Shown: piece by piece, positions 29,079 through 46,050 of the stretch
How positions within the stretch are numbered: position 1 is the first letter of the stretch
How the letters are laid out: each line of letters opens with the position of its first letter
Source: a bacterium
GTDB lineage: Bacteria > Pseudomonadota > Alphaproteobacteria > Rhizobiales > Aestuariivirgaceae
Reading direction: 5' to 3'
Length of the DNA: 46,050 nucleotides
Assembly (NCBI GenBank): GCA_022842165.1
Contig: JALHQC010000030.1
Location: 1,353 to 47,402, forward strand
Notes under the pieces: generated by a model
The model's input: the letters and a program-made list of their open reading frames with translations, nothing else
Database searches by the model: none
Told to the model about the DNA's origin: nothing
Translations under genes and position numbers: made by a program

Positions 29079-29271
29079 CCCGAAATCTCCACACAGTCCT
29101 AGACGCTGTCATCCGCCAGAAACCCGGAGCCTGCGGTTAACCACATTCTCCGGCTGGCCGAGGCCGAGCCCGATCCTAGTGGTCCGGCATTAAGAAATTC
29201 TTGGAATAATGGTCTCGTATCAGAACTGTGGATCGAAACGTGACAGCAGCCGGACAACACGGGTTAGGGCG

Positions 29272-30579: not shown

Positions 30580-30584
30580 GTTCG

Positions 30585-32003: not shown

Positions 32004-32735
32004 CTAGCGAAATAGCGCCATTGAATTCATCGATGCATTCTTACCGGTTCCCGCACCAACGGAAGGGCCGACCACCAGATTCCAGCTATAGCCACGGAAA
32101 CCCTGGCTGAACGACCATTGCCTGTTGTCTATCCCTGCGATGTGCTCAATTTCCTGACGCACTGACGCGCGAGGCTCGACCTCGAACTGGCGGAGCCAGT
32201 AGAACAAAAGCGTTTTCGACAGCCCCGGCAGAGACTCGCATTGACCGAAGTCGACAACATGCAAACGGCCATCCGGTTCAAGCAGGCGCATGGATTGCGA
32301 TAAAGCCGTCTGCCAGTTCGGGATCATCGAGAGCGCATAGGAAAAGAAGATTCGATCGAAAGTGCGAAGCCCGAACATCACAAAGGGATCTGCCTTCAGT
32401 GCGTCGCCTTGTGCAATGCGGACCCGATCCGCCAGACCCGCCTTCCAAATCGACTGACCGGCGGTTTTTAACATCTCGTCGGAGATGTCGAAGCCGAAGA
32501 CCTTCGCCTCAGGATAGGCTTGCGCCACTTTCACGAGGTTGCGGCCCGTGCCACAACCGATTTCCAGAACTGTGCCGCCGGGCGGCACGTCGAGTTCTTC
32601 AATGAGCTTTTCCCGTCCCAGCAAGTAGAATCGCCGGCTCGCATCATAAATGTGGCGCTGAAAGCGATACATCCGGTCCATCTGGCGACGGTTGGATGCA
32701 AGGCCTTCGCTGTCAGTGGGCTGGTGCACGCTCAT
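32004..32735 (-). CDS. btaB: BtaB: diacylglycerylhomoserine N-methyltransferase
   Basis: 243 residues from ATG 32735; GGAGG lies about 11 bases upstream and the gene overlaps the end of btaA by 23 bases. A class I SAM methyltransferase core starts with VLEIGCGTGRNLVKVAQ at residue 57, followed by VFGFDISDEML, IAQGDALKADP and FFSYALSMIPNWQTAL. The N-terminal MDRMYRFQRHIYDASRRFYLLG segment is typical of BtaB. The known reaction adds three methyl groups to diacylglycerylhomoserine to make the betaine lipid DGTS. Co-occurrence with btaA makes the call strong. Confidence 0.9.
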   Translation of the reverse strand: MSVHQPTDSEGLASNRRQMDRMYRFQRHIYDASRRFYLLGREKLIEELDVPPGGTVLEIGCGTGRNLVKVAQAYPEAKVFGFDISDEMLKTAGQSIWKAGLADRVRIAQGDALKADPFVMFGLRTFDRIFFSYALSMIPNWQTALSQSMRLLEPDGRLHVVDFGQCESLPGLSKTLLFYWLRQFEVEPRASVRQEIEHIAGIDNRQWSFSQGFRGYSWNLVVGPSVGAGTGKNASMNSMALFR

Positions 32736-33963
32736 AGATGTGGAAGCCTCCATAGATGCTTGATCTGTCACGAGCGGCCAGCTCGAGCGACCGCGCGTCG
32801 AGATAGTTCCATTGCGCAAGAGTATCGGCGGTGATACGGCCTGGCAGTATGGTGTTGCGGCCCGCGGTCCGGAAGATAACCCGAGCGCCGGGTGCGGCGG
32901 CGCGGGTGATGGCCGTCCACAATTCTTCCAGCTGAATGTCGTTCATCCAGTCTTGCGCATCGAGCAGCACAAGGCGGTGGGCGCTGCCGGGCTCCATCTG
33001 GTTCAATGCATCGGTGAAAGAGACATGGCGAACTTCCACACGAGCCGCACGGGCGCGCAGATTGGCGAAATTCTTTTCCTCAAGATACGGCGGCAGCGGG
33101 CCGGACGCTCCCGGCGCATAAGCGCGCCCGAAAGCCTGCCAGGCAAAATAGTTCTCCCGCAGCGGGAAATCGCATGTGAGCTTCGAAAGCCGATCCCGCA
33201 GAACGCACGACATCGGCGCGCCATCGGCGAGCGCCTCGTATTGCGCAGGCGGAATGCCGAGGCCGTAGAGCGAGACCTTCCGGTCAGTAATCCATTTCAC
33301 GAACTTGCGGTCGAACAACGGTGCAATCTCGCGTTCGAAGAAATCCCTCTGTTCTTCGATCGAGCGCGTAGCCAGTAAACCCGTCATGTCGTGCCCATAG
33401 ACCTTCGCCAAGATGTGGCCCATTCCGATGAAGCGGCCAAGCAGGCCCTTCCGGTAAATGTTAGTCTTGAACAGCGAAATGCGTCGGCGCCCGGTCAGGG
33501 TGCGGCGTTCCCAGTAATTCCGGGTTTCACCGTCGAGTTTCAGTTTCAGGAAATTGTTGTAGTCGCGAAGGTTCTGCGCTTCATCCGCCTCGCCGAAGAA
33601 GCGGTAATAACTGTCCCAGCCGGGAAGATGACGGAGCCCCGCAAGCTTCAGCCGCACCAGCGCCACATGTGCGCGGTTGAGGTCCACAGCCGTCACTTTC
33701 GCGGGATTGGCTGTCAGGTAGCTCAACACGTTGCAGCCGCCCGATGCGATCGCCACGATGTGATGATGCGGCTCGATATCCATCGCTGCGAGGTCCACAA
33801 CCGGGTCCTCCCAGATCTGCGGGTAGACCAGTCCACTGAAGGCGAGGGTAAAGAGCCGTTCCAGGACTCCTTCCTTGCTAGCCGCCTTGTTTCGATGGAC
33901 AGCCTTGCCGAGAAGCTTGAGCGCGGAAGGTTTTGTCTCGCTGCCAGAATATGCCGCCGTCAT
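32713..33963 (-). CDS. btaA: BtaA: SAM:diacylglycerol 3-amino-3-carboxypropyltransferase
   Basis: 416 residues, the usual length of DUF3419/BtaA. Family blocks are FTLAFSGLVYPQIWEDPVVD near the start, ASGGCNVLSYLTANPAKVTA with VDLNRAHVALVRLKL (SAM-binding core), and the C-terminal HRLVLLDAQDWMN. It transfers the aminocarboxypropyl group of SAM to diacylglycerol, the first step of phosphorus-free betaine lipid synthesis, which rhizobia induce under phosphate limitation. btaB overlaps its end. Upstream is a candidate Pho site shared with the divergent plcP side. Confidence 0.92.
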   Translation of the reverse strand: MTAAYSGSETKPSALKLLGKAVHRNKAASKEGVLERLFTLAFSGLVYPQIWEDPVVDLAAMDIEPHHHIVAIASGGCNVLSYLTANPAKVTAVDLNRAHVALVRLKLAGLRHLPGWDSYYRFFGEADEAQNLRDYNNFLKLKLDGETRNYWERRTLTGRRRISLFKTNIYRKGLLGRFIGMGHILAKVYGHDMTGLLATRSIEEQRDFFEREIAPLFDRKFVKWITDRKVSLYGLGIPPAQYEALADGAPMSCVLRDRLSKLTCDFPLRENYFAWQAFGRAYAPGASGPLPPYLEEKNFANLRARAARVEVRHVSFTDALNQMEPGSAHRLVLLDAQDWMNDIQLEELWTAITRAAAPGARVIFRTAGRNTILPGRITADTLAQWNYLDARSLELAARDRSSIYGGFHIYERAPAH

Positions 33964-34016
33964 GTCGCTCTCCCTGAATCAGCTTCCGCTGCTGAAACGG
34001 GCGCTAAGCAGGATTT

Positions 34017-34034
34017 ATGACACTGCGATAACGG
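34017..34034 (-). promoter_or_regulatory. Candidate Pho box for btaAB
   Basis: On the minus strand CCGTTAT (34034-34028) and GTGTCAT (34023-34017) are 11 bases apart and match the half-site CTGTCAT at 5 of 7 and 6 of 7 bases. The 11-bp phasing is that of known PhoB sites. It lies about 55 bases before the btaA start. Confidence 0.5.
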
Positions 34035-34049
34035 CAACGCGCATCTGTG

Positions 34050-34067
34050 ACGTCATCAAAGCTTCAT
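34050..34067 (+). promoter_or_regulatory. Weaker Pho box candidate for plcP-agt
   Basis: ACGTCAT (34050-34056) and GCTTCAT (34061-34067) are 11 bases apart and match CTGTCAT at 5 of 7 and 4 of 7. The site lies about 26 bases before the preferred plcP start 34093 and covers the earlier in-frame ATG 34066, which argues against that start. Confidence 0.35.
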
Positions 34068-34092
34068 GGGAGTCAGACTTAAGGTCCGGCAC

Positions 34093-34926
34093 ATGCCACT
34101 GAGCACGATGCCAATGCGATCGCCGCCGCGTCACTACCGGGCCATTTTCATCTCGGACATCCACCTTGGAACGAAGCGATCCCAGACGGATGCTCTGCTG
34201 GATTTTCTCCGGGCCACAGAGTCCGATCAGCTCTACATCGTCGGCGACTTCATCGACAACTGGTCGCTGCGGAAGCAGTGGTTCTGGGACCAGTCGCACA
34301 ATGACGTCATCCAGAAGCTGCTACGCAAGGCGCGCAAGGGCACCAAGCTCGTCTACATTCCCGGCAATCATGACGAGAATTTTCGCAACTTCGTGAACTT
34401 GAGAATGGGTCGCGTCGCGGTGCTCGAGGAAGCCGTTCATTTAGGCGCCAATGGCAAGCGCTACCTGATCCTCCACGGTGACAAGTTCGATGGCGTCGTG
34501 CGCTTCGCACCGTGGCTCGCGCATCTTGGCGACACGGCCTACGAGGTTTCAATGGCGCTCAATTCCAGCGTCAACCGCGTTCGCCGCTTCTTCCGCTTGC
34601 CTTACTGGTCGCTCTCACAATACCTCAAGTATCGCGTCAAGAAAGCCGTCGAGTTCATCTCGCATTTCGAGGATGCGGTGGTGCGCGAGGCCCGGAAGCG
34701 GAACTGCCAGGGTGTGATCTGCGGCCACATCCACACGCCCGACGATCGCTATATCGACGGCATTCATTACCTGAACGATGGGGACTGGGTGGAAAGCTGC
34801 ACGGCACTGGTCGAGCACAAGGACGGCACGTTCGAGATCATCGACTGGAACAAGGCAATGCAACAGGAGCTGGAAGACGTCTATGCGCATCCTGATCGTG
34901 ACGGACGCTTGGTCGCCGCAGGTTAA
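34093..34926 (+). CDS. plcP: PlcP-type metallophosphoesterase (phospholipase C)
   Basis: 277 residues from ATG 34093, preceded by AAGG at about 8 bases; ATG 34066 is in frame but overlaps a Pho-box candidate. All calcineurin-like metal motifs are present: DIHLG (about residue 23), GDFIDNW, GNHDENF, LHGDKFD and GHIHTPDD. Length and motifs resemble both LpxH and the phosphate-stress phospholipase PlcP. The adjacency to agt and btaAB favours PlcP, which removes head groups from phosphatidylcholine and phosphatidylethanolamine to give diacylglycerol. No signal peptide is seen, so it acts on the cytoplasmic face. Confidence 0.82.
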   Translation: MPLSTMPMRSPPRHYRAIFISDIHLGTKRSQTDALLDFLRATESDQLYIVGDFIDNWSLRKQWFWDQSHNDVIQKLLRKARKGTKLVYIPGNHDENFRNFVNLRMGRVAVLEEAVHLGANGKRYLILHGDKFDGVVRFAPWLAHLGDTAYEVSMALNSSVNRVRRFFRLPYWSLSQYLKYRVKKAVEFISHFEDAVVREARKRNCQGVICGHIHTPDDRYIDGIHYLNDGDWVESCTALVEHKDGTFEIIDWNKAMQQELEDVYAHPDRDGRLVAAG

Positions 34927-35944
34927 CGGCGTCGTCCGCACACTGAACGCAGTCATCCGCGAGCTTTCAGCCAAGGGGCACGACGTCCGCACTATCAATC
35001 CGGACAAGCGGCCGTCCTGGCCAATGCCGTTCTATCCGGAGATTTCCCTCACAAGGACATCGACCGGAGACATGATGCGCGAGATCGCCGCCATCATGCC
35101 GGACGTCATCCACATCGCCACCGAAGGACCGCTGGGATGGACCGCACGGCGCGCCTGTCTCAGCCAAGGCTGGAGGTTCACGACAGGCTTCCACACGCGG
35201 TTCGCCGAATATGCCGCGGCCCGCATTCCGCTGCCGGGCGTATTGAGTGCAGGGTGGAGGGTCTTGCGGCAATTCCACAAGCCCAGCCAGGCTGTGATGG
35301 TCCCGACGAAGTCGATCGGCCATGAGCTTGACAAGCGGCACTTCACAAATGTCAAAATCTGGACGCGCGGCGTCGACCGTTCGCAGTTCAAGATATATCC
35401 GCGCGACCATCTCGATCTGCCGCGTCCCATCGTGCTCTATGCCGGGCGGCTTGCGATCGAAAAGGGAATCGATGACTTCATGGCCCTGAAGGTAAAGGGC
35501 AGCAAGGTGCTGGTAGGAGATGGACCCGAACGCGAGAGGCTGCAGCGGCGCAATCCTGATGCGCACTTCCTCGGCTTCCGTCATGGCGAGGATTATGCCC
35601 GCACCCTGGCATCCGCAGACGTGATGGTATTCCCGAGCAAGACTGATACATTCGGCCTCGTCATGCTGGAAGCCATGGCCTGCGGAACACCGGTTGCCGC
35701 TTACAATGCGCCAAGCCCCCTCGATGTCGTGGAGCATGGCGTCACAGGTTGCTTCGCGGACAGGCTGGAAGATGCGGTCGCCTCCGCATCGCAGCTCGAT
35801 CGGGCTGGTGTCCGTGAAGGTTCCATGCATTTCAGCTGGGCAAAATGCGCCGAGATGTTCGAATCCTGGCTGGTGCCCTGCATTTCCACCGAGGCACGGC
35901 AACCATCATGGGACGCGGCCGGAACTCTCATCCACCTGCGCTAG
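34883..35944 (+). CDS. agt: Agt-type diacylglycerol glycosyltransferase (GT4)
   Basis: 353 residues from ATG 34883, which overlaps the end of plcP by 44 bases; GGAAGA lies about 8 bases upstream. Start [20 protein letters not shown] is the donor-side Gly/Val block of GT4 enzymes, and the C-terminal domain has [17 protein letters not shown] and [20 protein letters not shown] with the E-x7-E motif. In Agrobacterium and Mesorhizobium the homologous Agt makes glucosyl- and glucuronosyl-diacylglycerol under phosphate limitation. Position right after plcP supports use of the diacylglycerol it releases. Donor sugar not readable. Confidence 0.82.
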
Positions 35945-35959
35945 CCGCGGACTTGTGGG

Positions 35960-35999
35960 TTGTCATTTGGCTGCAACCTTAATGTCACATCAATGTTGT
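35960..35999 (+). promoter_or_regulatory. Candidate Pho box of the phnCDEE operon, four phased half-sites
   Basis: Four 7-base half-sites at strict 11-base steps: TTGTCAT (35960), CTGCAAC (35971), ATGTCAC (35982) and ATGTTGT (35993). They match CTGTCAT at 6, 4, 5 and 4 of 7 bases. The array sits 40 bases before the phnC start. Confidence 0.5.
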
Positions 36000-36038
36000 G
36001 GGCTGGCTGTTGTTTGCAATGCAACAGGGAACGGCCAG

Positions 36039-36851
36039 ATGCTTAGAATCGAAAACCTCGGCAAGTCTTTCAGTGGCAAGGCGGCCTTGTCCGATGTGTC
36101 AGTCGAGATTGAACATGGTTCTTTTGTCGGCGTGATCGGGCGTTCGGGTGCCGGCAAGTCCACTTTGCTCCGCTGCATCAACCGCCTCGTCGACCCCTCC
36201 GAAGGCCGCATCGATTTCGACGGCCTTGATGTGACATCACTCCGCGGCAAGGCACTCCGCGACTGGCGCTCGTCCTGCGGCATGATCTTCCAGCAGTTCA
36301 ATCTTGCAGGCCGCCTCGATGTCTTGACCAACGTGCTGATGGGCCGCATCAACTCGATCTCTACATTTCCGGCGCTGCTGAAAATCTGGCCCGAAGCCGA
36401 AAAGCTCATGGCGCTTCGGGCACTCGACAGGCTGGATCTGGGGGACTTTGCAGCCCAGCGCGCCGAGAGCTTGTCGGGCGGCCAGCAGCAGCGCGTCGCC
36501 ATTGCCCGCACGCTCGTTCAGAATCCGAAGATCATCCTGGCGGATGAACCCGTTGCCTCGCTCGATCCTCGCAACACGCAGGCCGTGATGGATGCGCTCC
36601 GCGACCTCAATGCGCAGAACGGAATCACCGTGCTCTGCAATCTCCATTCCCTCGATCTCGCCCGTGGTTACTGCTCGCGCCTCATCGGCATGAAGGCAGG
36701 CCGCGTGGTGTTTGACGGACGCCCTGAAGCCCTGACCGACGATCTCGTCGTCGAACTCTACGGGCTCGAGGCAAACGACGTGCTGGATTTCACACAAGAG
36801 GCGGCGGCACGGCGCAAGGAACAGTCAGACGACGTCAAGACTGCCGCCTGA
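36039..36851 (+). CDS. phnC: Phosphonate ABC transporter ATP-binding protein, copy 1
   Basis: 270 residues from ATG 36039. Walker [10 protein letters not shown] at 34-42, Q-loop [20 protein letters not shown] (the last part is a PhnC signature), ABC signature [14 protein letters not shown], Walker [12 protein letters not shown] and switch [13 protein letters not shown]. PhnC is about 260 residues, so length fits. It powers uptake of phosphonates or phosphate esters. The open frame extends upstream to 35694 only by chance. First gene of phnC-D-E-E with a Pho-box candidate before it. Confidence 0.93.
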
Positions 36852-36894
36852 TCCGCCTCTTCTTCAGAACAGACAACCAACAGGAGCCACCCAG

Positions 36895-37803
36895 ATGTTT
36901 ACGCGCCGCACTCTTCTGCAGGCTGCAGCCGGCCTTGCCGCCGTTGCCGCCATGGCCACCAGCGCCTACGCCGACTGGAAGGACACCTATAAGGAACTGA
37001 CCATCGCTGCGGTCCCGGATGAAAATGCCACCGGCACCGAGCGCCGCTACGAGCCGTTCATCCAGTATCTCTCGAAGCAGCTTGGCGTTCCAGTGAAGCT
37101 CCGCATCGCCAACGACTATGCCGCCGTCATCGAAGGCCAGATCGCCGGAAACATCCACATTGCCCAATATGGGCCAGCCGCCTTTGCGCGCGCCCTCATG
37201 AATGGCGCGAAGGCCGAGGCATTCGGCATGCAGGTCAACAAGGACGGCACCAAGGGATACTTCTCGGTCCTCTGGGTGAAGGCTGACAGCCCCTATCAGA
37301 AGTTTGAAGACCTCAAGGGCAAGAACCTCGGCCTCGTCGACCCGAACTCGACATCGGGCAACAACGTTCCCCGCTTCGCCATGAACAAGATGGGCATCAA
37401 GCCGGAGGAGTTCTTCTCGAACGTTGTCTATGCCGGCAGCCACGAGAACGCGATCATCGCCCTGCAGCAGGGCCAGGTTGACGCCGCCTTCAACTGGTGG
37501 AATGACGACAAGGAATCCATGCTGATGCGCATGGAGCGCAAGAACATGGCGAAGTATTCCGACTTCCGCATGATCTTCAAGTCAGACATGATCGTGAACT
37601 CTCCGGTGGCAATGCTCTCCGAGTTGCCGGACGACCTGAAAGCTTTGATCAAGGACGCTTTCTACAACGTCGAGAAAAACGATCCGGAAGCCTTCAAGGT
37701 GCTGACTGATGGTGAAGCCCAGCCTTGGGCTCCAGCCACGAATGCTGACTACGACGTCATCGTAGAGCTTAACACCTTCGTCGACACGCTCCGCAAGCAA
37801 TAG
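36895..37803 (+). CDS. phnD: Phosphonate ABC transporter substrate-binding protein, copy 1
   Basis: 302 residues; AGGAG lies 9 bases before ATG 36895. The N-terminus TRRTLLQAAAGLAAVAAMAT is a signal peptide, Tat-like because of the twin Arg. Mature blocks: PDENATGTERRYEPFIQYLS, HIAQYGPAAFARALM, FSVLWVKADSPYQKFEDLKG and LVDPNSTSGNNVPRF, matching the PhnD/PtxB family that binds phosphonate, phosphite or phosphate esters in the periplasm. The exact ligand is not readable. Confidence 0.92.
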   Translation: MFTRRTLLQAAAGLAAVAAMATSAYADWKDTYKELTIAAVPDENATGTERRYEPFIQYLSKQLGVPVKLRIANDYAAVIEGQIAGNIHIAQYGPAAFARALMNGAKAEAFGMQVNKDGTKGYFSVLWVKADSPYQKFEDLKGKNLGLVDPNSTSGNNVPRFAMNKMGIKPEEFFSNVVYAGSHENAIIALQQGQVDAAFNWWNDDKESMLMRMERKNMAKYSDFRMIFKSDMIVNSPVAMLSELPDDLKALIKDAFYNVEKNDPEAFKVLTDGEAQPWAPATNADYDVIVELNTFVDTLRKQ

Positions 37804-37813
37804 TTACTTGAAC

Positions 37814-37840
37814 CGGGGCCTGCGGCATGCGCGGGCCCCG
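37814..37840 (+). other. Hairpin between phnD and phnE
   Basis: CGGGGCC (37814-37820) and GGCCCCG (37834-37840) form a 7-bp stem around 13 bases, followed by ATCCTTTAGC. The weak T-tract suggests an mRNA-stabilising or attenuating hairpin after the binding-protein gene rather than a full terminator. Confidence 0.5.
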
Positions 37841-37856
37841 ATCCTTTAGCGGCATC

Positions 37857-38744
37857 ATGACAACAGCAACGGCAGACTCACGCAAGTCGATCGAGGCCCT
37901 CTCGTCCGCCTATGCGGCAATAGTGGCCCGCAAGCGCAAGCAGTTCCTGAGATCGGGGGCCGTTCTCGCCGTCGTCATCCTCGTCGCGGGGTGGATGGCA
38001 GAGGTCGATCTTGCCCTGTTCTTTTCAAATGTTCACAAATTCCCGAATTACATCGGCCGTATCTTCATTCTCGATTCTGGCGACCTCAAGGGGAGCCTAG
38101 TGGTCTTCGATATCCCCGGCTGGTTTTGGGGAGTCGGAAAATGGCTGAAGCTCCTCGCGGACACTCTGTTGATCGCCTATGTGGCAACATTGATCGGCGC
38201 AATCTTCGGCTTTTTCGCCTGCTTTTTCGCTGCCGGAAATCTCGGCGTGTCTACACCTATTCGCTTTGCCGTGCGGCGCTATCTCGAGTTCTGCCGCACT
38301 GTTCCGGAGCTCGTCTTTGCATTGATCTTCGTTCTGGCCTTTGGACTTGGCCCAATTGCTGGCGTTCTCGCCATCATCGTTCACACCACTGGCGCTCTCG
38401 GCAAGCTCTTCTACGAAGTGCTCGAAAACATCGACCAGAAGCCCGTTGAAGGCCTCATTTCCAGCGGTGCGTCCTGGACGAAGACGATGCGCTTTGCCGT
38501 GCTGCCGCAGGTGCTCGCCAACTTCATCAGCTATGCGCTGCTGCGCTTCGAAATCAATGTGCGTGGCGCCTCCGTCATGGGTTTCGTGGGTGCCGGCGGC
38601 ATCGGCCAGGACCTGATCGAGGCCATCCGCAAATTCTACTACCCGGATGTTTCGGCCATCCTGTTGCTCATCATCGCGACGGTTGCCGTGATCGATCTTG
38701 TGACAGAACGCATCCGCCACCGCTTCATCGCGCAAGGACACTGA
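37857..38744 (+). CDS. phnE: Phosphonate ABC transporter permease, copy 1a
   Basis: 295 residues from ATG 37857. About six membrane segments (FLRSGAVLAVVILVAGWMAE, TLLIAYVATLIGAIFGFFAC and others) and the conserved loop KPVEGLISSGASWTKTMRFA with GFVGAGGIGQDL near the end, a PhnE hallmark. The next gene is a second permease one base downstream, so the transporter is probably a PhnE1-PhnE2 heterodimer with PhnC. Confidence 0.92.
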   Translation: MTTATADSRKSIEALSSAYAAIVARKRKQFLRSGAVLAVVILVAGWMAEVDLALFFSNVHKFPNYIGRIFILDSGDLKGSLVVFDIPGWFWGVGKWLKLLADTLLIAYVATLIGAIFGFFACFFAAGNLGVSTPIRFAVRRYLEFCRTVPELVFALIFVLAFGLGPIAGVLAIIVHTTGALGKLFYEVLENIDQKPVEGLISSGASWTKTMRFAVLPQVLANFISYALLRFEINVRGASVMGFVGAGGIGQDLIEAIRKFYYPDVSAILLLIIATVAVIDLVTERIRHRFIAQGH

Positions 38745-38745
38745 C

Positions 38746-39603
38746 ATGACTGGCGACGACGGCTACAGCGCCCTTGAAGAAACCGCACTGCGCACCCGAT
38801 ACAGGTCGAGCTTCGCGCGCGATAGCCGCATGGGCTATTACATTGCTGCCGCTGCAACCGCCCTTCTTGCCTACGGCCTGTGGCATCTCGGATTCTCGAT
38901 CACCAAATTCCTGCACGGCATCGCCAACCTTGGCAATTTTGTTGTCCTCATGTTCCCTCCAAGCTGGGGCGACACTGCAAGCCTGTTCCGGTTTGTGAAG
39001 GCCCTGGGCGAAACTGTGGCCATCGCTCTACTTGGCACGATGCTCGCGGCTGCCATTGCCTTGCCGCTGAGTTTTCTCGCTGCAAACAATACCACCGTCT
39101 CCCAGATCCTGCGTTTCTTCGCGCGCCGTTCCTTCGATACGCTGCGCGGTGTCGATACGCTGGTCTGGGCGCTGATCTGGGTCAACGTCGTGGGGCTCGG
39201 TCCCTTTGCCGGTGTCCTTGCCATCGCGATCTCGGATATCGGCTCGTTCGGCAAGCTGTTCTCGGAGGCGATCGAAGCATCCGACAAGAAGCCGGTGGAA
39301 GGTGTTGTCGCCTCAGGCGGCTCGCGCCTTCATGCCATCCGCTTTGGTATCCTGCCGCAGGTCGCACCCGTGTTGATCAGCCAGTTCCTTTACTACTTTG
39401 AATCGAACACCCGCTCTGCAACCATCATTGGCATCGTCGGCGCAGGCGGCATCGGCCTGCAACTGTCGGAGCAGATCCGCACGCTGGAATGGCAGACAGT
39501 GTGCTTCATCATCATCATGATCCTGATGACCGTATCGGTGATCGACCTCATATCGACAAGACTCCGGACCGCCATCGCAGGAGACGCCCGGACGACGATC
39601 TAG
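38746..39603 (+). CDS. phnE: Phosphonate ABC transporter permease, copy 1b
   Basis: 285 residues, one base after the previous stop. Same architecture as its neighbour: LFRFVKALGETVAIALLGTM, the loop KKPVEGVVASGGSRLHAIRF and GIVGAGGIGLQL. The proteins are clearly paralogous but diverged. Its stop TAG (39601-39603) overlaps the stop of the convergent phnM paralogue through one CTAG. Confidence 0.92.
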   Translation: MTGDDGYSALEETALRTRYRSSFARDSRMGYYIAAAATALLAYGLWHLGFSITKFLHGIANLGNFVVLMFPPSWGDTASLFRFVKALGETVAIALLGTMLAAAIALPLSFLAANNTTVSQILRFFARRSFDTLRGVDTLVWALIWVNVVGLGPFAGVLAIAISDIGSFGKLFSEAIEASDKKPVEGVVASGGSRLHAIRFGILPQVAPVLISQFLYYFESNTRSATIIGIVGAGGIGLQLSEQIRTLEWQTVCFIIIMILMTVSVIDLISTRLRTAIAGDARTTI

Positions 39604-40754
39604 ACTGCGGAATAGACGAGCTTTCCGTTGCACAACACCGCAGATGGTCGCCGCCGCATCTCATGCAACACAATCAGGTCGGCGCGCAGGCCTTCTGCAA
39701 TGTAACCCCGGTCAGCCAGACCGCATGCCCTCGCCGGAGCACCACTCACAAGTTCCCAGGCGCGTTCGAGCGGCAGAGTGCCACGCTCCACCAGCGCCAG
39801 TGCGGCGGCCATCGGTGCAGGGTAATAATAGTCGGATGCCAGAATGGTGCACATCTCGCGCTTGACGGCATCCTCCGCACCAATTGCACCATTGTGACTG
39901 CCGCCTCGCACAACATTGGGCGAGCCCAGCACGATGTCGTCGCCATTGGCAGCCGCCTCTTCCAGTGTTTCCATGTTCATCGGGAACTCTGCTATGGCAA
40001 CACCCAGATTGCGATAGAACCCGCGCATCTCCACGCTCTGATCATCGTGCGACAGCATCGGAACGCCAAGATGTCGAGCCGAGGTGCTGAGGTTTTTGAT
40101 TGCAAATGCAACTTCTGTTTGACGTTCTCCGATGGCATCGAGCAATTCCCGGTAGGTGCCAATATCAACCATGGCCCGCTCCGCCGAGCCCCGCAGCTTG
40201 ATTTCCTTGCGGGTGCCCGACAACGACATAGACGTATGATCGTTGAATGCCAGCAGCGGCTTTTTCTCTCGCCGGAGAAGCGACTCGACTTCGCCGCTCT
40301 CATCGACTGCAAACGTTTCCCACCGGATATGGAGCCTGTTGTCGGAATGAAACTCCGGTTCGAGTCGGTCGAGCGCATCAATGATGCGCATTGCCTGCTC
40401 CAGACTTCTGAGACCGGGCTCCCATGACACCGTGATCCCATGATAGGCCGTCGTGATGCCGTTTGCCGCAAGCTGCCGGTCGGTTTCGAGCAGCGCCATA
40501 TCCAGCGGGAACATCGTCTTGGGCCGCGGCATGATTTGGCGCTCGAAGGCATCGCCATGGATATCGACAATACCGGGAAGGACAAGACAGCCTGTAGCAT
40601 CGATTCCTGCCACGCCATTTTGTGGCCTGCGGGCAATCTCGCTGATAACACCGCCACTGCAATGGATGTCGGCCGGCACGAGACCCTCCCCCGGAATGAG
40701 GCAGAGCCCGCCGCGTATCGTGATGTCCCGGGTCGCTCTAACGTCGAGTGGCAT
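39600..40754 (-). CDS. phnM: PhnM-like amidohydrolase, paralogue 1
   Basis: 384 residues from ATG 40754, preceded by GGAG; a further in-frame ATG at 40766 lacks a ribosome site. Amidohydrolase signatures: LPGIVDIHGDAFERQIMPRP (metal His and Asp), the Lys/Asp region ending FNDHTSMSLS, GVPMLSHDDQSVEM and GSPNVVRGGSHNG. PhnM removes diphosphate from alpha-D-ribose 1-methylphosphonate 5-triphosphate in the C-P lyase pathway. This paralogue (HGDAFER rather than HTDHLEN) differs from the one at 43832-44971 and is away from the lyase genes, so its substrate may differ. Confidence 0.85.
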   Translation of the reverse strand: MPLDVRATRDITIRGGLCLIPGEGLVPADIHCSGGVISEIARRPQNGVAGIDATGCLVLPGIVDIHGDAFERQIMPRPKTMFPLDMALLETDRQLAANGITTAYHGITVSWEPGLRSLEQAMRIIDALDRLEPEFHSDNRLHIRWETFAVDESGEVESLLRREKKPLLAFNDHTSMSLSGTRKEIKLRGSAERAMVDIGTYRELLDAIGERQTEVAFAIKNLSTSARHLGVPMLSHDDQSVEMRGFYRNLGVAIAEFPMNMETLEEAAANGDDIVLGSPNVVRGGSHNGAIGAEDAVKREMCTILASDYYYPAPMAAALALVERGTLPLERAWELVSGAPARACGLADRGYIAEGLRADLIVLHEMRRRPSAVLCNGKLVYSAV

Positions 40755-40788
40755 CTGCTTCTCCATCTATCGGGGGAGAAGTCGCCCA

Positions 40789-40811
40789 TCTTCATGACAG
40801 TGTCATGAAAC
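40789..40811. promoter_or_regulatory. Palindromic bidirectional Pho box between phnM paralogue and phnD2
   Basis: The core TTCATGACAGTGTCATGAA (40791-40809) is a perfect 19-base inverted repeat. Reading minus, GTTTCAT and CTGTCAT (7 of 7 consensus, complement of 40794-40800) are 11 bases apart; reading plus, TCTTCAT (40789) and GTGTCAT (40800) are also 11 apart. It lies 35-57 bases from phnM paralogue 1 and 42-64 from phnD2, so it could serve both. Confidence 0.6.
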
Positions 40812-40852
40812 GCTGTTGTTTGGGGTCTGCTTGCATTCAGGAGATATGCACA

Positions 40853-41719
40853 ATGAAGATCTGGAACTGGATTTCGGGCGTGGCGCTTGCCGCCGGCCTG
40901 ATGACCGCAACTGCCACGGCAGAAACGATCCGCTTCGCCGTCACCGACGTCGAAGGAATGGAACAGCTGCAGCGCGAATATGGTGCTTTCGTCGAAGAAC
41001 TCGAGAAGGCAACCGGCTTCGACGTTGAATTCACGCCCGTGAGCAACCGCACTGCCGCGGTTGAAGCAATGCGCGCCGAACAGGTTGATTTCGTGCTGAC
41101 AGGCCCTGCCGAGTATGTGGTATTCAAGGTTTTGACCGATGCCAAGCCTGTTGTTGCATGGCATCGCCCGGACTACTTCGCACAGATCGTCGTGATGGCG
41201 GATGGTGACATCAAGAGCCTTGCCGATCTCAAGGGCAAGAAGGTTGCCTATGGCGAAGTTGGCTCGACTTCCCAACAGCTCGGACCGGCGCAGGTCCTAG
41301 CCGATGCTGGTCTCAAGTACAACGAGGACTACACAGCAGAAATCATCAAGCGCAACGTCGCGATTGAAGCCATGATCCGTGGAGACGTTCAGGCTGTTGG
41401 CATGAACCTCACGCATCTCCGCTCGGTCCGCGAAAAATTCCCCGATCAGAAGTTTGCCGTGGTCGGCCGCGGTCCCGATCTTCCGAACGATATTCTGATC
41501 GTGGCTTCCTACGTCAAGCCCGAGGTCGTCGAAAAGGTAAAGTCCGCCTTCCTCGACAAGGGTTCCGAGCTGATGACCGGCGTCCTTAAGGGCGAAGACA
41601 CGAAGAAGTATGATGGCGGTTACTTTGTGCCAACCGTCGACGACAAGGACTATGACATCGTGCGCGCCATGTATGCCACCATCGGCGTTCCGAAGTTTTC
41701 GAACTTTCTGGGTGAGTAA
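40853..41719 (+). CDS. phnD: Phosphonate-type ABC transporter substrate-binding protein, copy 2
   Basis: 288 residues from ATG 40853, with AGGAG about 9 bases upstream. A Sec signal peptide (ISGVALAAGLMTATATA, cut near residue 23) precedes ETIRFAVTDVEGMEQLQREY, EFTPVSNRTAAVEAMRAEQV and DFVLTGPAEYVVFKV, typical of the PhnD/SsuA-like group. It is only distantly similar to copy 1, so a different ligand is likely. phnC2 begins directly after its stop. Divergent from the phnM paralogue across a palindromic Pho site. Confidence 0.9.
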   Translation: MKIWNWISGVALAAGLMTATATAETIRFAVTDVEGMEQLQREYGAFVEELEKATGFDVEFTPVSNRTAAVEAMRAEQVDFVLTGPAEYVVFKVLTDAKPVVAWHRPDYFAQIVVMADGDIKSLADLKGKKVAYGEVGSTSQQLGPAQVLADAGLKYNEDYTAEIIKRNVAIEAMIRGDVQAVGMNLTHLRSVREKFPDQKFAVVGRGPDLPNDILIVASYVKPEVVEKVKSAFLDKGSELMTGVLKGEDTKKYDGGYFVPTVDDKDYDIVRAMYATIGVPKFSNFLGE

Positions 41720-42502
41720 ATGAACCTTCAGGTTCAGGCTTTCGAGCCAGCGGCGGGACAAATTCCCGCCGCCATCTCCATTCGCAATCTTTCGAAGTCG
41801 TTCTCGGCTTCGAAGACCGTCTTCTCTGGCATCAATATCGATATCGCGCCAGGCAGCCTCGTGGCCCTGATCGGCGCGAATGGCGCCGGCAAATCAACCC
41901 TCCTGCGCTGCATTCCGCGCCTGATCGATCCCGATGGCGGGGAAATCGAAGTGCAGGGACAGAAGGTGCTGAGGGACGCTCGCAACCTCCGCCGCCTCCG
42001 CTCGAAGATCGGTTTCGTCTTCCAGAAGCATAATCTTGTGGGCCGCCTGTCGAGCCTCACCAACGTGATTCACGGCGCGCAAGGCCGTGGCTACGGCGTG
42101 GCCGCCTGGAACCAGGCCTTCGCATCGTCCGCAATCCGCGCCCAGGCCCTCGACTGCCTGGACCGCGTGGGGCTGGCACCAACGGCGGCACAGCGCGCCG
42201 ATTCGCTTTCTGGCGGGCAATCGCAGCGTGTCGCAATCGCAAGGGCGCTCATGCAGCAGCCCGACATCGTTCTCGCTGATGAACCGGCTGCAAGCCTTGA
42301 CCCGCAGGCCGGAGACGAAGTGATGCAGCTTTTCGTTACGCTGATGCAGATGGAGGCAAAAACCGTCGTTTTCTCCTCGCACAATCTCACGCACGCACTC
42401 CAGTTCGCCGATCGCGTCATCGCAATCGCTGGCGGCAAGATTGTGCTCGATGCGCCCAGCCGCAGCCTGGGCGAAGCTGAACTCAGAGGCCTCTATGGCT
42501 GA
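41720..42502 (+). CDS. phnC: Phosphonate-type ABC transporter ATP-binding protein, copy 2
   Basis: 260 residues. The ATG abuts the phnD2 stop. Walker A GANGAGKST, Q-loop FQKHNLVGRLSSLTNVIHG, signature LSGGQSQRVAIARAL, Walker B IVLADEPAASLDP and switch SSHNLTHAL are intact. The first 18 residues, before the ABC core, are an extension. It works with the single permease that follows. Confidence 0.92.
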   Translation: MNLQVQAFEPAAGQIPAAISIRNLSKSFSASKTVFSGINIDIAPGSLVALIGANGAGKSTLLRCIPRLIDPDGGEIEVQGQKVLRDARNLRRLRSKIGFVFQKHNLVGRLSSLTNVIHGAQGRGYGVAAWNQAFASSAIRAQALDCLDRVGLAPTAAQRADSLSGGQSQRVAIARALMQQPDIVLADEPAASLDPQAGDEVMQLFVTLMQMEAKTVVFSSHNLTHALQFADRVIAIAGGKIVLDAPSRSLGEAELRGLYG

Positions 42503-43283
42503 GCATGCGCTCCCATCCCGCTTCGAGCGGCCAAACGCGCTGACTTTTGTTCTGCTCGTCGGCACGGCCGCGTTGATCATTTCCAGCTTCGCAACAAGCG
42601 GCGTTTCCTTTGAGAAGCTTGTGCGCGGCTTTCCGGCACTTGGGCGTCTGGGCGCGCAGATGTTCCCTCCGTCGATCGAGCGGCTGGAGCCTGTGTTGTG
42701 GTCACTGATTCAGACCTTCCAGATGGCAATCGCCGGAACAGTTCTCGGCCTCATCATCAGTCTGCCTTTAGCAGTTCTCGCAGCACCCAGCCTGTCGCCC
42801 CATCCGTTCTTCGTCTGGGTGACAAGGGGCATCGTGGCATTATTCCGCACTGTCCCCGATCTGGTGTGGGCCATCGTTTTCGTCATTGCAGTGGGTCTTG
42901 GACCAGCGGCGGGCGTTCTGGCCCTGATGGTGGACACCACAGGTTTTGCCGCGCGCTTCTTTGCAGAAGCCATGGAAGAGACTGAAAAGGGACCGCGCGA
43001 AGCATTATCTGCGTTGGGCGCCAGCCGCAGCGGCATCATCTTCTCGTCCGTCATCCCGCAGGCCATGCCGTCGATGATCAACACATCGCTCTTCTCACTG
43101 GAGAAGGCGACGCGCGGTTCGGTGGTGCTGGGACTCGTGGGTGCGGGCGGAATCGGGATCGAGCTAAAGGTGTCGCTCGAGATGTTCGACTACGATCAGG
43201 CGGCGACCATCATCATCGCCATCTTCCTGTTGGTTCTGGCTGTCGAGCGTGCGTCCACTTGGGTTCGCAACCGCATTCTCTAG
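42495..43283 (+). CDS. phnE: Phosphonate-type ABC transporter permease, copy 2
   Basis: 262 residues from ATG 42495, overlapping the phnC2 stop by 8 bases. About six membrane segments, the loop KGPREALSALGASRSGIIFS and GLVGAGGIGIELKVS mark PhnE. Only one permease gene accompanies this set, suggesting a homodimer. Its last 120 bases overlap the 3' end of the convergent phnN gene. Confidence 0.92.
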   Translation: MAEHALPSRFERPNALTFVLLVGTAALIISSFATSGVSFEKLVRGFPALGRLGAQMFPPSIERLEPVLWSLIQTFQMAIAGTVLGLIISLPLAVLAAPSLSPHPFFVWVTRGIVALFRTVPDLVWAIVFVIAVGLGPAAGVLALMVDTTGFAARFFAEAMEETEKGPREALSALGASRSGIIFSSVIPQAMPSMINTSLFSLEKATRGSVVLGLVGAGGIGIELKVSLEMFDYDQAATIIIAIFLLVLAVERASTWVRNRIL

Positions 43284-43832
43284 CGTTTCAAGAAACTCAC
43301 AGAAACAATCAACGGCGTCTTGCAGCGCGCCGTTGTTCTCGATCCTTACAACTTGCACTCCTGCCGGATAGTCGGGAACACTGCGTGAAACACGCTGAAT
43401 GGCCTCCGCTTCGGTCTCACGCCCACGTGCGACGATGCGGGAGACGAGGACATCTGGTGATGCGGTGATCTCTGCAACGGTGACTTTTGGAAAACGCGCC
43501 GCAGCTACTTCAATGATAGTGCGCGAGCAATTGACAGCGACGACGCATCCAGCCCGCAGGTCGGCCTCGACCGAAGTGCCGATGCCATAGTAGTTTCCAT
43601 GTGCATTCCACCACAATGCGAATGCGTCTTCAGAAACCGCAATGGCGAACTCCATGTCTGTCATCGTCAGATGGTCTTCGGCACCTACATCGGCAAAGCG
43701 CGTCACGAAGCGTTGTGGGAACACGAAGCGGCGATCGCCTGCGAGTTCCGCCTTGGCGCCGCGCAGCACACTGTCCTTGCCTGCTCCGCTGGGACCGACG
43801 ACGAGAACCAGATGTCCCTTGCAGTCGCTCAT
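43164..43832 (-). CDS. phnN: PhnN: ribose 1,5-bisphosphate kinase with run-on tail
   Basis: 222 residues from ATG 43832, overlapping the phnM2 stop (TGATG). P-loop GPSGAGKDSVLR at 13, then RFVFPQRFVTRFAD, ALWWNAHGNYYGIGTSVEAD and the ITASPDVLVSRIVARGRETE block of PhnN, which makes PRPP from ribose 1,5-bisphosphate in the C-P lyase pathway. PhnN is usually about 185-200 residues. Here the last ~40 residues (DSQNQQEDGDDDGRRLIVVE) are low-complexity and acidic, and lie antisense to the phnE3 end, as if the original stop was lost. Confidence 0.88.
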   Translation of the reverse strand: MSDCKGHLVLVVGPSGAGKDSVLRGAKAELAGDRRFVFPQRFVTRFADVGAEDHLTMTDMEFAIAVSEDAFALWWNAHGNYYGIGTSVEADLRAGCVVAVNCSRTIIEVAAARFPKVTVAEITASPDVLVSRIVARGRETEAEAIQRVSRSVPDYPAGVQVVRIENNGALQDAVDCFCEFLETLENAVANPSGRTLDSQNQQEDGDDDGRRLIVVEHLERHL

Positions 43833-44971
43833 CACATCACCCGCTCGGCGTTCCGCCACACGCGGCGCACGATTGGCAGTTCACCGTTCAGCTTGACCTG
43901 CACGAGATCGGCGCGCCGCCGCGGCTCGATTGCACCCCGATTGTCCAGCCCCGCAGCATGGGCGGGATTGAGCGTGATCAGCCGAAGCGCCTTGGCGAGC
44001 CCCATTCCTTCGACGGTGCGGGCGAGCGTGAAGACGGCAGGCAGCAAGCTCGACGGCACGTAGTCGGACGACAGCACATCGAGATGGCCATTGGCTGCAA
44101 CCTCGGCGGCTGAGATATTCCCCGAGTGAGACTTTCCGCGCACCACATTGGGCGCTCCCATCAGAACCGCAAGCCCATTGCGATGCGCGGCCTGTGCCGC
44201 TTCCCGCGTCGTCGGGAACTCGGCAATAGTCACACCATCAGAGATGGCTTCCTCGACATGCGCCTCCGTTGCGTCATCGTGACTGGCGAGCTTCACGCCC
44301 AGCCTTTGGGCCAGTTCGAGAATCTTCTGCTTGTTCTGCGCAGCATGCCGGCCTTGCATTTCACGGCGCTCTGCGATGTAGGCATCCATCTTCTCGGGCA
44401 TGATGATCTTCTTGCCGAGGTAATATTCCTTGAACTTGTCGATCGACACGAACTGCCTGGCACCCGGCGTGTGATCCATGATCGAGATGAGGTGCAGTGC
44501 GCCGGCAGTAGCCACCAGTTCCGCCGATTCCGCAGTGTCCTCGCAAGGCAGCTCGCAGCGCAGGTGAATGAAGTGCTCGGCTCTCAGGTGCCCTGCTCCC
44601 TGCGCCTCGCAGATTGCGGCAGAGAGGGCCCTCCCGTGATGCGCCGACAGATCAGTAGGATCGAAGGTGCCTGCACGCAACGCGTCAAACACGGTGGTGA
44701 TGCCGGCTGCCGCCACCTGTGCATCATGCGCCATCACAGCCGAAACCGGAGGCCACGCGACACCGGGCCTCGGATGATAGTGGTTCTCGAGATGATCGGT
44801 GTGAAGCTCTACGAGACCGGGAATGAGATAGTCGCCGTCGAGATCTTCTGCTTCCACCGACACCCTGCCCGCGATCACTTCGAAAATCTTTCCGTCCCGC
44901 GTCACGACCGTCCCGTCGATAATTTCGTCAGGGAGTACAACCTTGGCGTTTGTAAAGATTTTCTCGGTCAT
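43832..44971 (-). CDS. phnM: PhnM: ribose 1-methylphosphonate 5-triphosphate diphosphatase
   Basis: 379 residues. Canonical PhnM signatures: IPGLVELHTDHLENHYHPRP, SIMDHTPGARQF, VKLASHDDATEAH, MGAPNVVRGKSHSGNISA and the late LSSDYVPSSLLPAVF. It overlaps the DUF1045 gene stop upstream (ATGA) and phnN downstream, giving the order phnL-DUF1045-phnM-phnN. This is the paralogue most likely to serve C-P lyase. Confidence 0.93.
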   Translation of the reverse strand: MTEKIFTNAKVVLPDEIIDGTVVTRDGKIFEVIAGRVSVEAEDLDGDYLIPGLVELHTDHLENHYHPRPGVAWPPVSAVMAHDAQVAAAGITTVFDALRAGTFDPTDLSAHHGRALSAAICEAQGAGHLRAEHFIHLRCELPCEDTAESAELVATAGALHLISIMDHTPGARQFVSIDKFKEYYLGKKIIMPEKMDAYIAERREMQGRHAAQNKQKILELAQRLGVKLASHDDATEAHVEEAISDGVTIAEFPTTREAAQAAHRNGLAVLMGAPNVVRGKSHSGNISAAEVAANGHLDVLSSDYVPSSLLPAVFTLARTVEGMGLAKALRLITLNPAHAAGLDNRGAIEPRRRADLVQVKLNGELPIVRRVWRNAERVM

Positions 44972-45657
44972 GAAGGGGCCTTTGCAGTGGAGGCTTGAAG
45001 GGGAAACCGGCGATGAACCTCGAAGGGAGCGCCGTGCTGCGGCTCCACGAACAAGGTCAACGCATCGATGGTGATGGAGCGCTCCAGAACCGAGGCGAAA
45101 TGGTCTTCAGCCACTGGCAGCACATGCTGCAATTCAGCGGGGCCGAGCCGGCGCGACAGCGTCATGTGAAACCGGAATTCCTCGAAGACATATGGATAAC
45201 CCCAGCGTTCCAAGTTCTGGTCCTGGCGGGGCGAAAGTCCGGCGGCACGCCGTTTGGCAAGTTCTTCGACTGATGCCTGCTGGCGAAATCCATCGAGATC
45301 GCGAACGCAAGCCGAGGCCAGTTGATCGACTTCCTCCGAGGACCCTGCCGGACTCAGTGCGAGGAAACCATCGATCTGCCGCAGTGCAAGAGTGACTTCG
45401 AAGCGCTGCAAGTCGTCTGCGAGCATTGCCACTGCCGCCTCGAGTGCCGAAGCTGAATACCGCTCTTTCAGTGCGAAGGGCGGCTTCAGCGTGGCATGAA
45501 ATCCGTAGCGGCGCGGCTCCGCAGTAATCTCCACGAGATCGATGGCGTTTGGTTGAGCGCAAGCTCCGCCGCTGAACGCATCGCGTCCAAGCCACTGTGA
45601 GCCCAGCTGGTGCAGCAGGCTTGGTGGCTCAGGAGCATAGTATATCGCGAATCGCAT
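44968..45657 (-). CDS. DUF1045 phosphonate-metabolism protein
   Basis: 229 residues from ATG 45657 (ATG 45681 is in frame but MRFAIYYAPEPPSLLHQLGS with WLGRDAFSG is the usual family start). It is a 2H-phosphoesterase-like (RNA ligase-type) protein: the two H-x-T motifs appear as GFHATLKPPF and FHMTLSRRLG. DUF1045 genes are found in many C-P lyase operons; they may act on cyclic phosphate intermediates, which is inference. It overlaps the phnM start and is 36 bases after phnL. Confidence 0.87.
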   Translation of the reverse strand: MRFAIYYAPEPPSLLHQLGSQWLGRDAFSGGACAQPNAIDLVEITAEPRRYGFHATLKPPFALKERYSASALEAAVAMLADDLQRFEVTLALRQIDGFLALSPAGSSEEVDQLASACVRDLDGFRQQASVEELAKRRAAGLSPRQDQNLERWGYPYVFEEFRFHMTLSRRLGPAELQHVLPVAEDHFASVLERSITIDALTLFVEPQHGAPFEVHRRFPLQASTAKAPS

Positions 45658-45693
45658 CGGAGCAGGAAACCTCACGTCCATGAACGGATGATG

Positions 45694-46050
45694 TCAGCCG
45701 AGCGCGATCTCGCGCTGGCAGGCATGCCGGCGTTCACCCTCATCGTGAAACACGCCAATCACCGCCGAGCCAGCTGCCCTCGCCTCCTCGACCAGTTCCA
45801 GCACGCGCCTGCGGTTTTCGGAATCGAGCGAAGCCGTGGGTTCATCGAGAAGCAGGATGGGAAAATGTGCCGCGAAGCCGCGCGCGATGTTCACACGCTG
45901 CTGCTCACCGCCGGAGAACGTCATGGGTGAAAGGTGCCACAGCCGTTCAGGAATGTTGAGGCGCGCGAGAAGCATGCGCGCGCGCTCCAATGCAAGCTCG
46001 GGCGCAATGCCGCGCTCGGTCAACGGCTCGGCGACGATTGTTTCGGCGGG
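45694..46050 (-). CDS. phnL: PhnL: C-P lyase system ATP-binding protein (partial)
   Basis: Only the C-terminal 118 residues are in the window; the frame is open through the right edge. Present are AETIVAEPLTERGIA, signature FSGGEQQRVNIARGFA, Walker B PILLLDEPTASLDS and switch VIGVFHDEGE, with the RRHACQREIAL end typical of PhnL. The Walker A region lies beyond 46050. Its presence shows a C-P lyase operon (phnGHIJKL) continues to the right. Confidence 0.92.
   Translation of the reverse strand, partial: PAETIVAEPLTERGIAPELALERARMLLARLNIPERLWHLSPMTFSGGEQQRVNIARGFAAHFPILLLDEPTASLDSENRRRVLELVEEARAAGSAVIGVFHDEGERRHACQREIALG

Follow-up and report, generated by a model that had tools for sequence, protein, structure and literature searches.

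Positions 32004-46050 of the window, by which we mean the whole stretch of 46,050 nucleotides analysed here, from a member of the Hyphomicrobiales, carry lipid-remodelling and phosphonate (phn) genes (Table 1). btaB and btaA diverge from the run plcP-agt-phnC1D1E1aE1b, which is followed by phnM2, divergent from phnD2C2E2, and by phnN-phnM1-DUF1045-phnL. The sequence-only reading had held that these two kinds of genes lie together with no unrelated gene between them, and the open frames and family matches confirm this. plcP adjoins genes for the synthesis of non-phosphorus lipids, with agt overlapping it, as in several relatives, and btaAB divergent from it; the 3' ends of phnN and phnE2 overlap by 120 bp. 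The start of phnC1 is probably that given in Table 1, and that of plcP is likely to lie further downstream than the listed ATG (34066), because a Pho-box-like site covers that codon.

Table 1. Genes and Pho-box-like sites of the block, with positions in the window.
Feature	Position	Strand	Evidence and remarks
btaB, betaine-lipid N-methyltransferase	32004..32732	-	SAM methyltransferase domains; name from position beside btaA, as in relatives
btaA, DUF3419 family	32713..33963	-	PF11899, 363 bits, E 3.6e-108
Pho-box-like site facing btaA	34017..34034	-	15.0 bits, rank 2 of window
Pho-box-like site facing plcP	34050..34067	+	15.6 bits, rank 1 of window; covers ATG at 34066
plcP, intracellular phospholipase C	34066..34926	+	PF00149, PF12850; true start probably 34093 or later
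agt, GT4 glycosyltransferase	34883..35944	+	PF13692, PF00534, PF13439
Pho-box-like site before phnC1	35971..35988	+	10.3 bits, rank 11 in window
phnC1	36039..36851	+	TIGR02315, 330 bits; match begins at residue 9 of stretch 36015-36851
phnD1, phosphonate-binding protein	36895..37803	+	TIGR03431, 328 bits
phnE1a, permease	37827..38744	+	TIGR01097, 273 bits
phnE1b, permease	38746..39603	+	TIGR01097, 279 bits
phnM2, PhnM paralogue	39600..40766	-	NF011987 subfamily, 421 bits, above cut-off; TIGR02318, 308 bits, below cut-off
Pho-box-like site between phnM2 and phnD2	40794..40811	-	12.6 bits, rank 7
phnD2, PtxB/PhnD-like binding protein	40850..41719	+	TIGR01098, 118 bits, above cut-off
phnC2	41720..42502	+	TIGR02315, 257 bits (256.7), just below cut-off 266.1
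phnE2	42495..43283	+	TIGR01097, 263 bits
phnN	43164..43829	-	TIGR02322, 185 bits
phnM1	43832..44971	-	TIGR02318, 466 bits
DUF1045, proposed phosphoribosyl cyclic phosphodiesterase	44968..45663	-	TIGR03223, 265 bits; PF06299
phnL, C-terminal part, cut by contig end	45694..46050	-	TIGR02324 positions 107-220

PhnC1, PhnD1, PhnE1a, PhnE1b, PhnE2, PhnN, PhnM1 and DUF1045 score above equivalog or hypothetical-equivalog cut-offs. PhnD2 falls below the PhnD cut-off and above that of the wider phosphate/phosphite/phosphonate-binding subfamily, and its closest solved structure is PtxB (5o2j, E 4e-19). PhnM1 and PhnM2 share 30% identity; the former exceeds the PhnM equivalog cut-off of 390.55 bits, while the latter passes subfamily cut-offs only and is classed as a paralogue. 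The search of solved structures returned two weak matches for PhnM2 and none for DUF1045 or BtaA. PlcP, a calcineurin-like phosphoesterase, is named by homology and context because its top NCBIfam match, of the LpxH type, scores far below cut-off (59 bits versus 134), and Agt, a GT4 enzyme, is named by context for the same reason (78 bits versus 480).

The right edge of the window is the end of the contig, which truncates phnL. Extension to the right, suggested earlier as a way of finding phnGHIJK, succeeds in part on a second contig of 3186 bp (C111), which repeats the final 119 bp exactly and bears the remaining phnL, then phnK, phnJ and phnI. The C-P lyase members found in the genome are thus phnI, phnJ, phnK, phnL and phnM, with phnG and phnH expected past the end of C111. 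As for a cyclic phosphodiesterase, the cluster has DUF1045 above its cut-off; that this protein acts as such, substituting for PhnP, is a proposal put forward in the accessible text on rhizobial C-P lyase genes (PMC8235418).

Regulatory sites were sought with a Pho-box model to which 14 of 23 relatives contributed 19 distinct sites from upstream of plcP/btaA, the window being excluded; the training sites were hand-picked from the two top matches per locus, and nine loci, L116 among them, were omitted. The plain consensus CTGTCAT-N4-CTGTCAT was dropped as too weak by itself (2.8 sites of 11 matches per shuffle). With this model, the two top-scoring sites of the whole 46-kb window lie back to back in the btaA/plcP gap. 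Among 20000 random segments drawn from positions 1-31900, none scored as high as this gap, while 102 matched the phnC1 gap and 74 the phnM2/phnD2 gap. The site before phnC1 has counterparts in G229 and G001 (14.2 bits each) and G368 (13.3 bits) and none in G370, where the best score is 4.1 bits; the site between phnM2 and phnD2 has counterparts in G019, G370, G006 and two plasmids. Sites of at least 12 bits number 8 in the window versus 2.25 in shuffles, and the specificity of the model is limited, as 7 of the 11 top window sites lie away from the promoters claimed here. No good site was seen immediately before plcP in G229, G018, G001, G011 or G019.

As far as the accessible parts of the sources go, in marine plcP neighbourhoods the gene is accompanied by btaA and btaB in type 1 and by agt in type 2, and putative Pho boxes are present (PMC4796936), and in Phaeobacter sp. 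MED193 PlcP, BtaA, PhnC/D/E, PhnI/J/L/M and DUF1045 are raised under phosphate limitation, the majority of the raised set being phoB dependent (PMC10132767). In ocean samples, plcP and phnJ both fall in abundance as phosphate rises, according to the available text of PMC6852614. The block shares gene kinds, putative Pho boxes and proposed lipid chemistry with the marine neighbourhoods, but combines both lipid branches, with btaAB and plcP pointing away from each other and phn genes coming after them, whereas the accessible part of that paper names no phn genes. Similarly, the gene kinds are those of the Phaeobacter Pho regulon, where, however, by the locus tags in the part of the paper available, plcP/btaA (17359/17364), phnI-M (17614-17649) and phnCDE (10151-10166) occupy separate loci (PMC10132767). 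The rhizobial set phnGHIJKLM, phnN, phnCDE1E2 and DUF1045 is likewise matched as far as the two contigs reach, although lipid genes beside it are not mentioned in the text available (PMC8235418). Each part is of a known kind, and their side-by-side gathering is a variant.

The Pho-box-like sites at three promoter regions and the published Phaeobacter regulon (PMC10132767, as available) lend support to the suggestion of one regulon. We consider it likely that the block is a phosphate-starvation cluster under PhoB control, whose genes are close through selection for joint control, their two halves having been joined more than once rather than transferred as a whole. From the genes, their order and the sites, all read directly from the DNA, we infer PhoB binding, co-expression, the lipids made and the compounds imported as follows. 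When phosphate is scarce, PhoB would bind the tandem boxes between btaA and plcP, one facing each way, as well as the sites ahead of phnC1 and in the phnM2/phnD2 gap. PlcP would remove phospholipid head groups, leaving diacylglycerol to be glycosylated by Agt or converted to the betaine lipid DGTS by BtaA/BtaB, and this lipid replacement would free membrane phosphorus. Meanwhile, the two ABC importers would take up phosphonates (or phosphite/phosphate), from which the C-P lyase set would release phosphorus.

The linkage had been expected to be uncommon, and this holds in the samples examined. In an order-wide sample, among the 82 other genomes for which matches to both genes were listed, plcP and phnJ lie within 15 kb of each other in 2. 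plcP matches occur in 37 of 69 family genomes, and in 6 of the 19 having both genes the two are linked, in three layouts; linkage was not seen in the other 13, several of which stop at contig edges. phn genes fall within 10 kb of plcP at 6 of 80 plcP loci, in scattered taxa. The window's own layout was not seen outside its genus, and in the paper listings and accessible text searched we found no description of plcP/bta adjoining phn genes. Such rarity would suit two independently regulated sets that adjoin by accident. Yet there are several linkage layouts, two genomes have one-strand runs with very short gaps, and Pho-box-like sites occur on both gene sets, so that we think an accidental neighbourhood improbable. 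The separation of plcP and phn genes in G001, G011 and G019, which indicates that joint position is not required, counts against the reading favoured here. Phosphorus-saving lipid genes beside phosphonate-scavenging genes are uncommon in these samples, and the arrangement appears to have arisen more than once. Genomes that fuse both sets allow one to ask whether phosphorus saving and scavenging form a single control decision, relatives in which these genes are separate providing a natural comparison.

The two one-strand genomes, G376 and G060, belong to different families and both include phnG and phnH. In each, btaAB-plcP-agt continues into phnG...N without a change of strand, the gaps being no longer than about 21 bp, and this arrangement looks like one operon; a Pho-box-like site precedes btaA. 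Since tree partners lacked the other gene, the halves were compared by identity. Against G376, G060 takes rank 2 for each of the lipid proteins BtaA, PlcP and Agt and rank 10 for both PhnI and PhnJ, in a thin comparison where several partners lack the other half; the halves therefore seem not to share one history. Similar lipid halves with phn halves of different affinity would suit separate joining. We tentatively propose, at somewhat less than even confidence, that lipid and C-P lyase genes were gathered several times in Alpha- and Betaproteobacteria, and that in G060 and G376 the same lipid operon captured different phn operons, creating a single operon, btaA-btaB-plcP-agt-phnGHIJKLM...N, preceded by a Pho box and making saving and scavenging one response.

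It had also been suggested that the trait could be transferred as a unit. The G+C content is 59.2% in the block versus 62.8% in the remaining window, 3.6 points lower, which is compatible with an acquired origin, and a phosphorus island moving between bacteria in one piece could also account for the block order common to G376 and G060, for the scattered taxa with phn genes near plcP and for the transposase genes beside the phnM2-phnD2C2E2 part on a Haematobacter plasmid. However, the window's PlcP and PhnJ both keep to their own genus in trees, so that transfer of this block as a unit is not supported. Furthermore, the G376/G060 halves rank differently, plcP matches in 34 plasmid records are all below 60% identity, and the three left neighbours contain no mobile-element match (the right border lies off the contig). 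We regard movement of the whole block as quite unlikely, and selection for joint control of separately joined halves as the better account.

The part that looks mobile is the phnM2-phnD2C2E2 module, a separate piece and the only one seen on plasmids without the remaining block. It occurs at 85% identity on plasmids of two orders, in Haematobacter massiliensis and Peteryoungia desertarenae, both predicted to be non-mobilizable. As in the window, phnM2 diverges from phnD2-phnC2-phnE2 with a Pho-box-like site between; unlike the window, phnF stands beside phnM2 (phnF-phnM2-phnDCE), and neither lipid genes nor a C-P lyase core are listed in the plasmid stretches examined. In G229, phnN adjoins phnM2 without phnD2C2E2 between them. 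The idea drawn from this, that phnD2C2E2 was inserted between phnN and phnM2, is no longer preferred, since the plasmids carry phnM2 and phnD2C2E2 together in divergent arrangement; the pattern is explained equally well if G229, G368, G011 and G366 have lost phnD2C2E2. Judged from match starts, phnN encodes 211-221 aa in four genomes that have the module, against 197-202 aa in five that lack it, which is compatible with either insertion or loss.

The window carries a real phosphate-starvation cluster, the parts of which are known and the arrangement of which is uncommon and recurring. It reads as btaB and btaA on the minus strand, then plcP-agt-phnC1-phnD1-phnE1a-phnE1b on the plus strand, followed by phnM2 (minus), phnD2-phnC2-phnE2 (plus) and phnL-DUF1045-phnM1-phnN running leftwards. 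Intergenic gaps are short and, as the sequence-only reading had held, gene calls and family matches place no unrelated gene inside. The right end of the window is a contig end, and the genome's sole PhnJ match lies on a 3186-bp contig (C111), whose first 119 bases are identical to the window's last 119 and which holds the remainder of phnL, then phnK, phnJ and phnI. The rightward extension proposed for phnGHIJK was recovered for phnK, phnJ and phnI; no contig overlapping the far end of C111 was found in this genome, and phnG and phnH lie upstream of phnI in two other genomes, G060 and G376. The window's phnN overlaps phnE2 tail to tail by 120 bp and has a longer reading frame than in relatives without phnD2C2E2. 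The left neighbours of the cluster match ATP-grasp, polysaccharide biosynthesis and thymidylate kinase families weakly.

Positions of the features discussed
Feature	Locus	Positions
Cluster	window	32004-46050
Left neighbours	window	27846-31958
phnN/phnE2 overlap	window	43164-43283
Pho-box-like site, phnL-DUF1045 junction	window	45680
phnM2-phnD2C2E2 divergent module	window	39600-43283
Same module	plasmid locus L237	6857-11399
Same module	plasmid locus L238	6859-11399
GT21 gene, G368	L207	4992-6173
GT21 gene, G229	L100	1443-2621
Layout B, G060	L101	14063-20000
Layout B, G060 (continued)	L102	1-4101
Layout B, G376	L205 + L206	

It had been suggested that the linkage may be uncommon, and it is so in our samples. 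Among 347 genomes of the order, PhnJ was found in 193 and PlcP in 281; plcP and phnJ lie less than 15 kb apart in 2 of the 82 other genomes listed for both proteins (G229, G060) and within 30 kb in 3 further ones (G202, G265, G180). Among 69 family genomes (PhnJ in 21, PlcP in 37, BtaA in 26), 19 have both PhnJ and PlcP, counting partial matches to PhnJ in G013 and PlcP in G367, and the genes are linked in six: the window's genome, G229, G368, G370, G376 and G299. btaAB is likewise present at three of these loci (the window's, G376, G299). In G370, plcP-agt-phnC1 are on a single contig, and their linkage to phnJ depends on a 141-bp identical contig-end overlap. Contig positions set the genes apart in G391 (a single contig), G388, G267, G389, G003, G001, G011 and G019; G020, G366, G378, G367 and G013, where a contig ends or a gene is partial, count in neither group. 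In none of the first 24 other relatives examined, many with short contigs, was a phn gene seen next to plcP; the only matches there were to ABC ATPases (28-45% identity). A set of 80 plcP loci was drawn from GTDB genomes, many of the loci being incomplete and three (L125-L127) judged to be of the window's family; in six, titled Alpha- and Betaproteobacteria, phn genes lie no more than 10 kb away (L131, L141, L162, L163, L193, L197), with weak matches in L193 (28-39% identity).

Three layouts account for the family linkage. In layout A (the window's genome, G229, G368, G370), plcP-agt is followed by phnC1, with a GT21 glycosyltransferase gene in between in G368 and G229; such a gene also comes next after agt in G011, G018 and G019, and none was matched in the window, G370 and G372 loci. 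Layout B, btaA-btaB-plcP-agt-phnG-H-I-J-K-L-M...N on one strand, occurs in G376 (gaps of at most 9 bp, an HD-domain gene separating phnM from phnN) and in G060, a member of family f36 (gaps of at most 21 bp, provided plcP starts at the listed GTG), facing phnC/D/E-DUF1045 head-on in both; it is a candidate single operon in two families. Upstream of btaA in G060, on the opposite strand, is a gene above the UgpC-type subfamily cut-off. In layout C (G299), phnI-J-K-L-C-D-E-DUF1045-M-N is followed by an ABC transporter, at a guess of glycerol-phosphate type, whose binding protein belongs to SBP_bac_8, and after it by agt-plcP and divergent btaAB. Published accounts describe plcP with btaAB or with agt, plus Pho boxes (PMC4796936), and a Phaeobacter Pho regulon of these parts at scattered sites (PMC10132767); no description of a lipid-remodelling set adjoining a phn set was found in the literature searched.

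The proposal of one regulon is likely to be correct, judging from predicted Pho-box-like sites at btaA/plcP, phnC1 and phnM2/phnD2. Most relatives with divergent btaA/plcP have tandem sites, and a model built from 19 of these, the window excluded, gave the window's btaA/plcP sites the two top ranks (15.6 and 15.0 bits), with phnM2/phnD2 in seventh place (12.6) and phnC1 in eleventh (10.3). Seven of the top 11 sites lie elsewhere, one of them at the phnL-DUF1045 junction; eight sites of at least 12 bits were observed vs 2.25 in shuffles. Random segments of positions 1-31900 scored as high in 0 (btaA/plcP), 102 (phnC1) and 74 (phnM2/phnD2) of 20000 draws. Counterparts score 14.2 (G229, G001), 13.3 (G368) and just 4.1 (G370) at phnC1, and 12.6 to 17.7 at phnM2/phnD2 (G019, G370, G006 and two plasmids). 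The btaA site scores 16.4 in G376 (top of its locus) and 12.8 in G060 (third), and G372 has sites in both directions; no good site was found directly 5' of plcP in G229, G018, G001, G011 and G019.

Transfer of the cluster as a unit, also proposed, is unlikely: in trees of PlcP (38 rows) and PhnJ (52 rows) the window's proteins remain within their own genus, and the halves in G376 and G060 differ in affinity. For BtaA, PlcP and Agt, G060 is second nearest to G376, behind G376's own genus, and tenth for PhnI and PhnJ; reciprocally, G376 ranks 1, 2 and 2, then 8 (PhnI) and 31 (PhnJ). Because the two are near for the lipid proteins and not for PhnI and PhnJ, the same type of lipid operon appears to have become joined to distinct phn operons, with the deep branching of PhnJ poorly resolved. 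G+C is 59.2% in the cluster vs 62.8% in the remainder of the window; the drop is smaller in G229 (66.9 and 64.5 vs 67.4 and 64.8), G001 (67.8 vs 69.3) and G368 (66.5 vs 68.8).

PhnD2 matches at E 1e-30 or better occur in 26 of the 347 order genomes. Plasmids of Haematobacter massiliensis and Peteryoungia desertarenae carry phnF-phnM2 divergent from phnD2C2E2, in the former between Tn3 transposase genes and further phnE/phnC genes, in the latter with no phn genes outside the module in the 18.8 kb listed. The two modules, from two orders, are 85.4% identical over 4521 bp and the match stops at the module borders. Since both plasmids are predicted to be non-mobilizable, it is from similarity alone that we infer movement. 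A plcP homologue, 47.6% identical, is present on Pseudomonas aeruginosa plasmids (NZ_CP137508.1, CP075839.1, NZ_CP042268.1).
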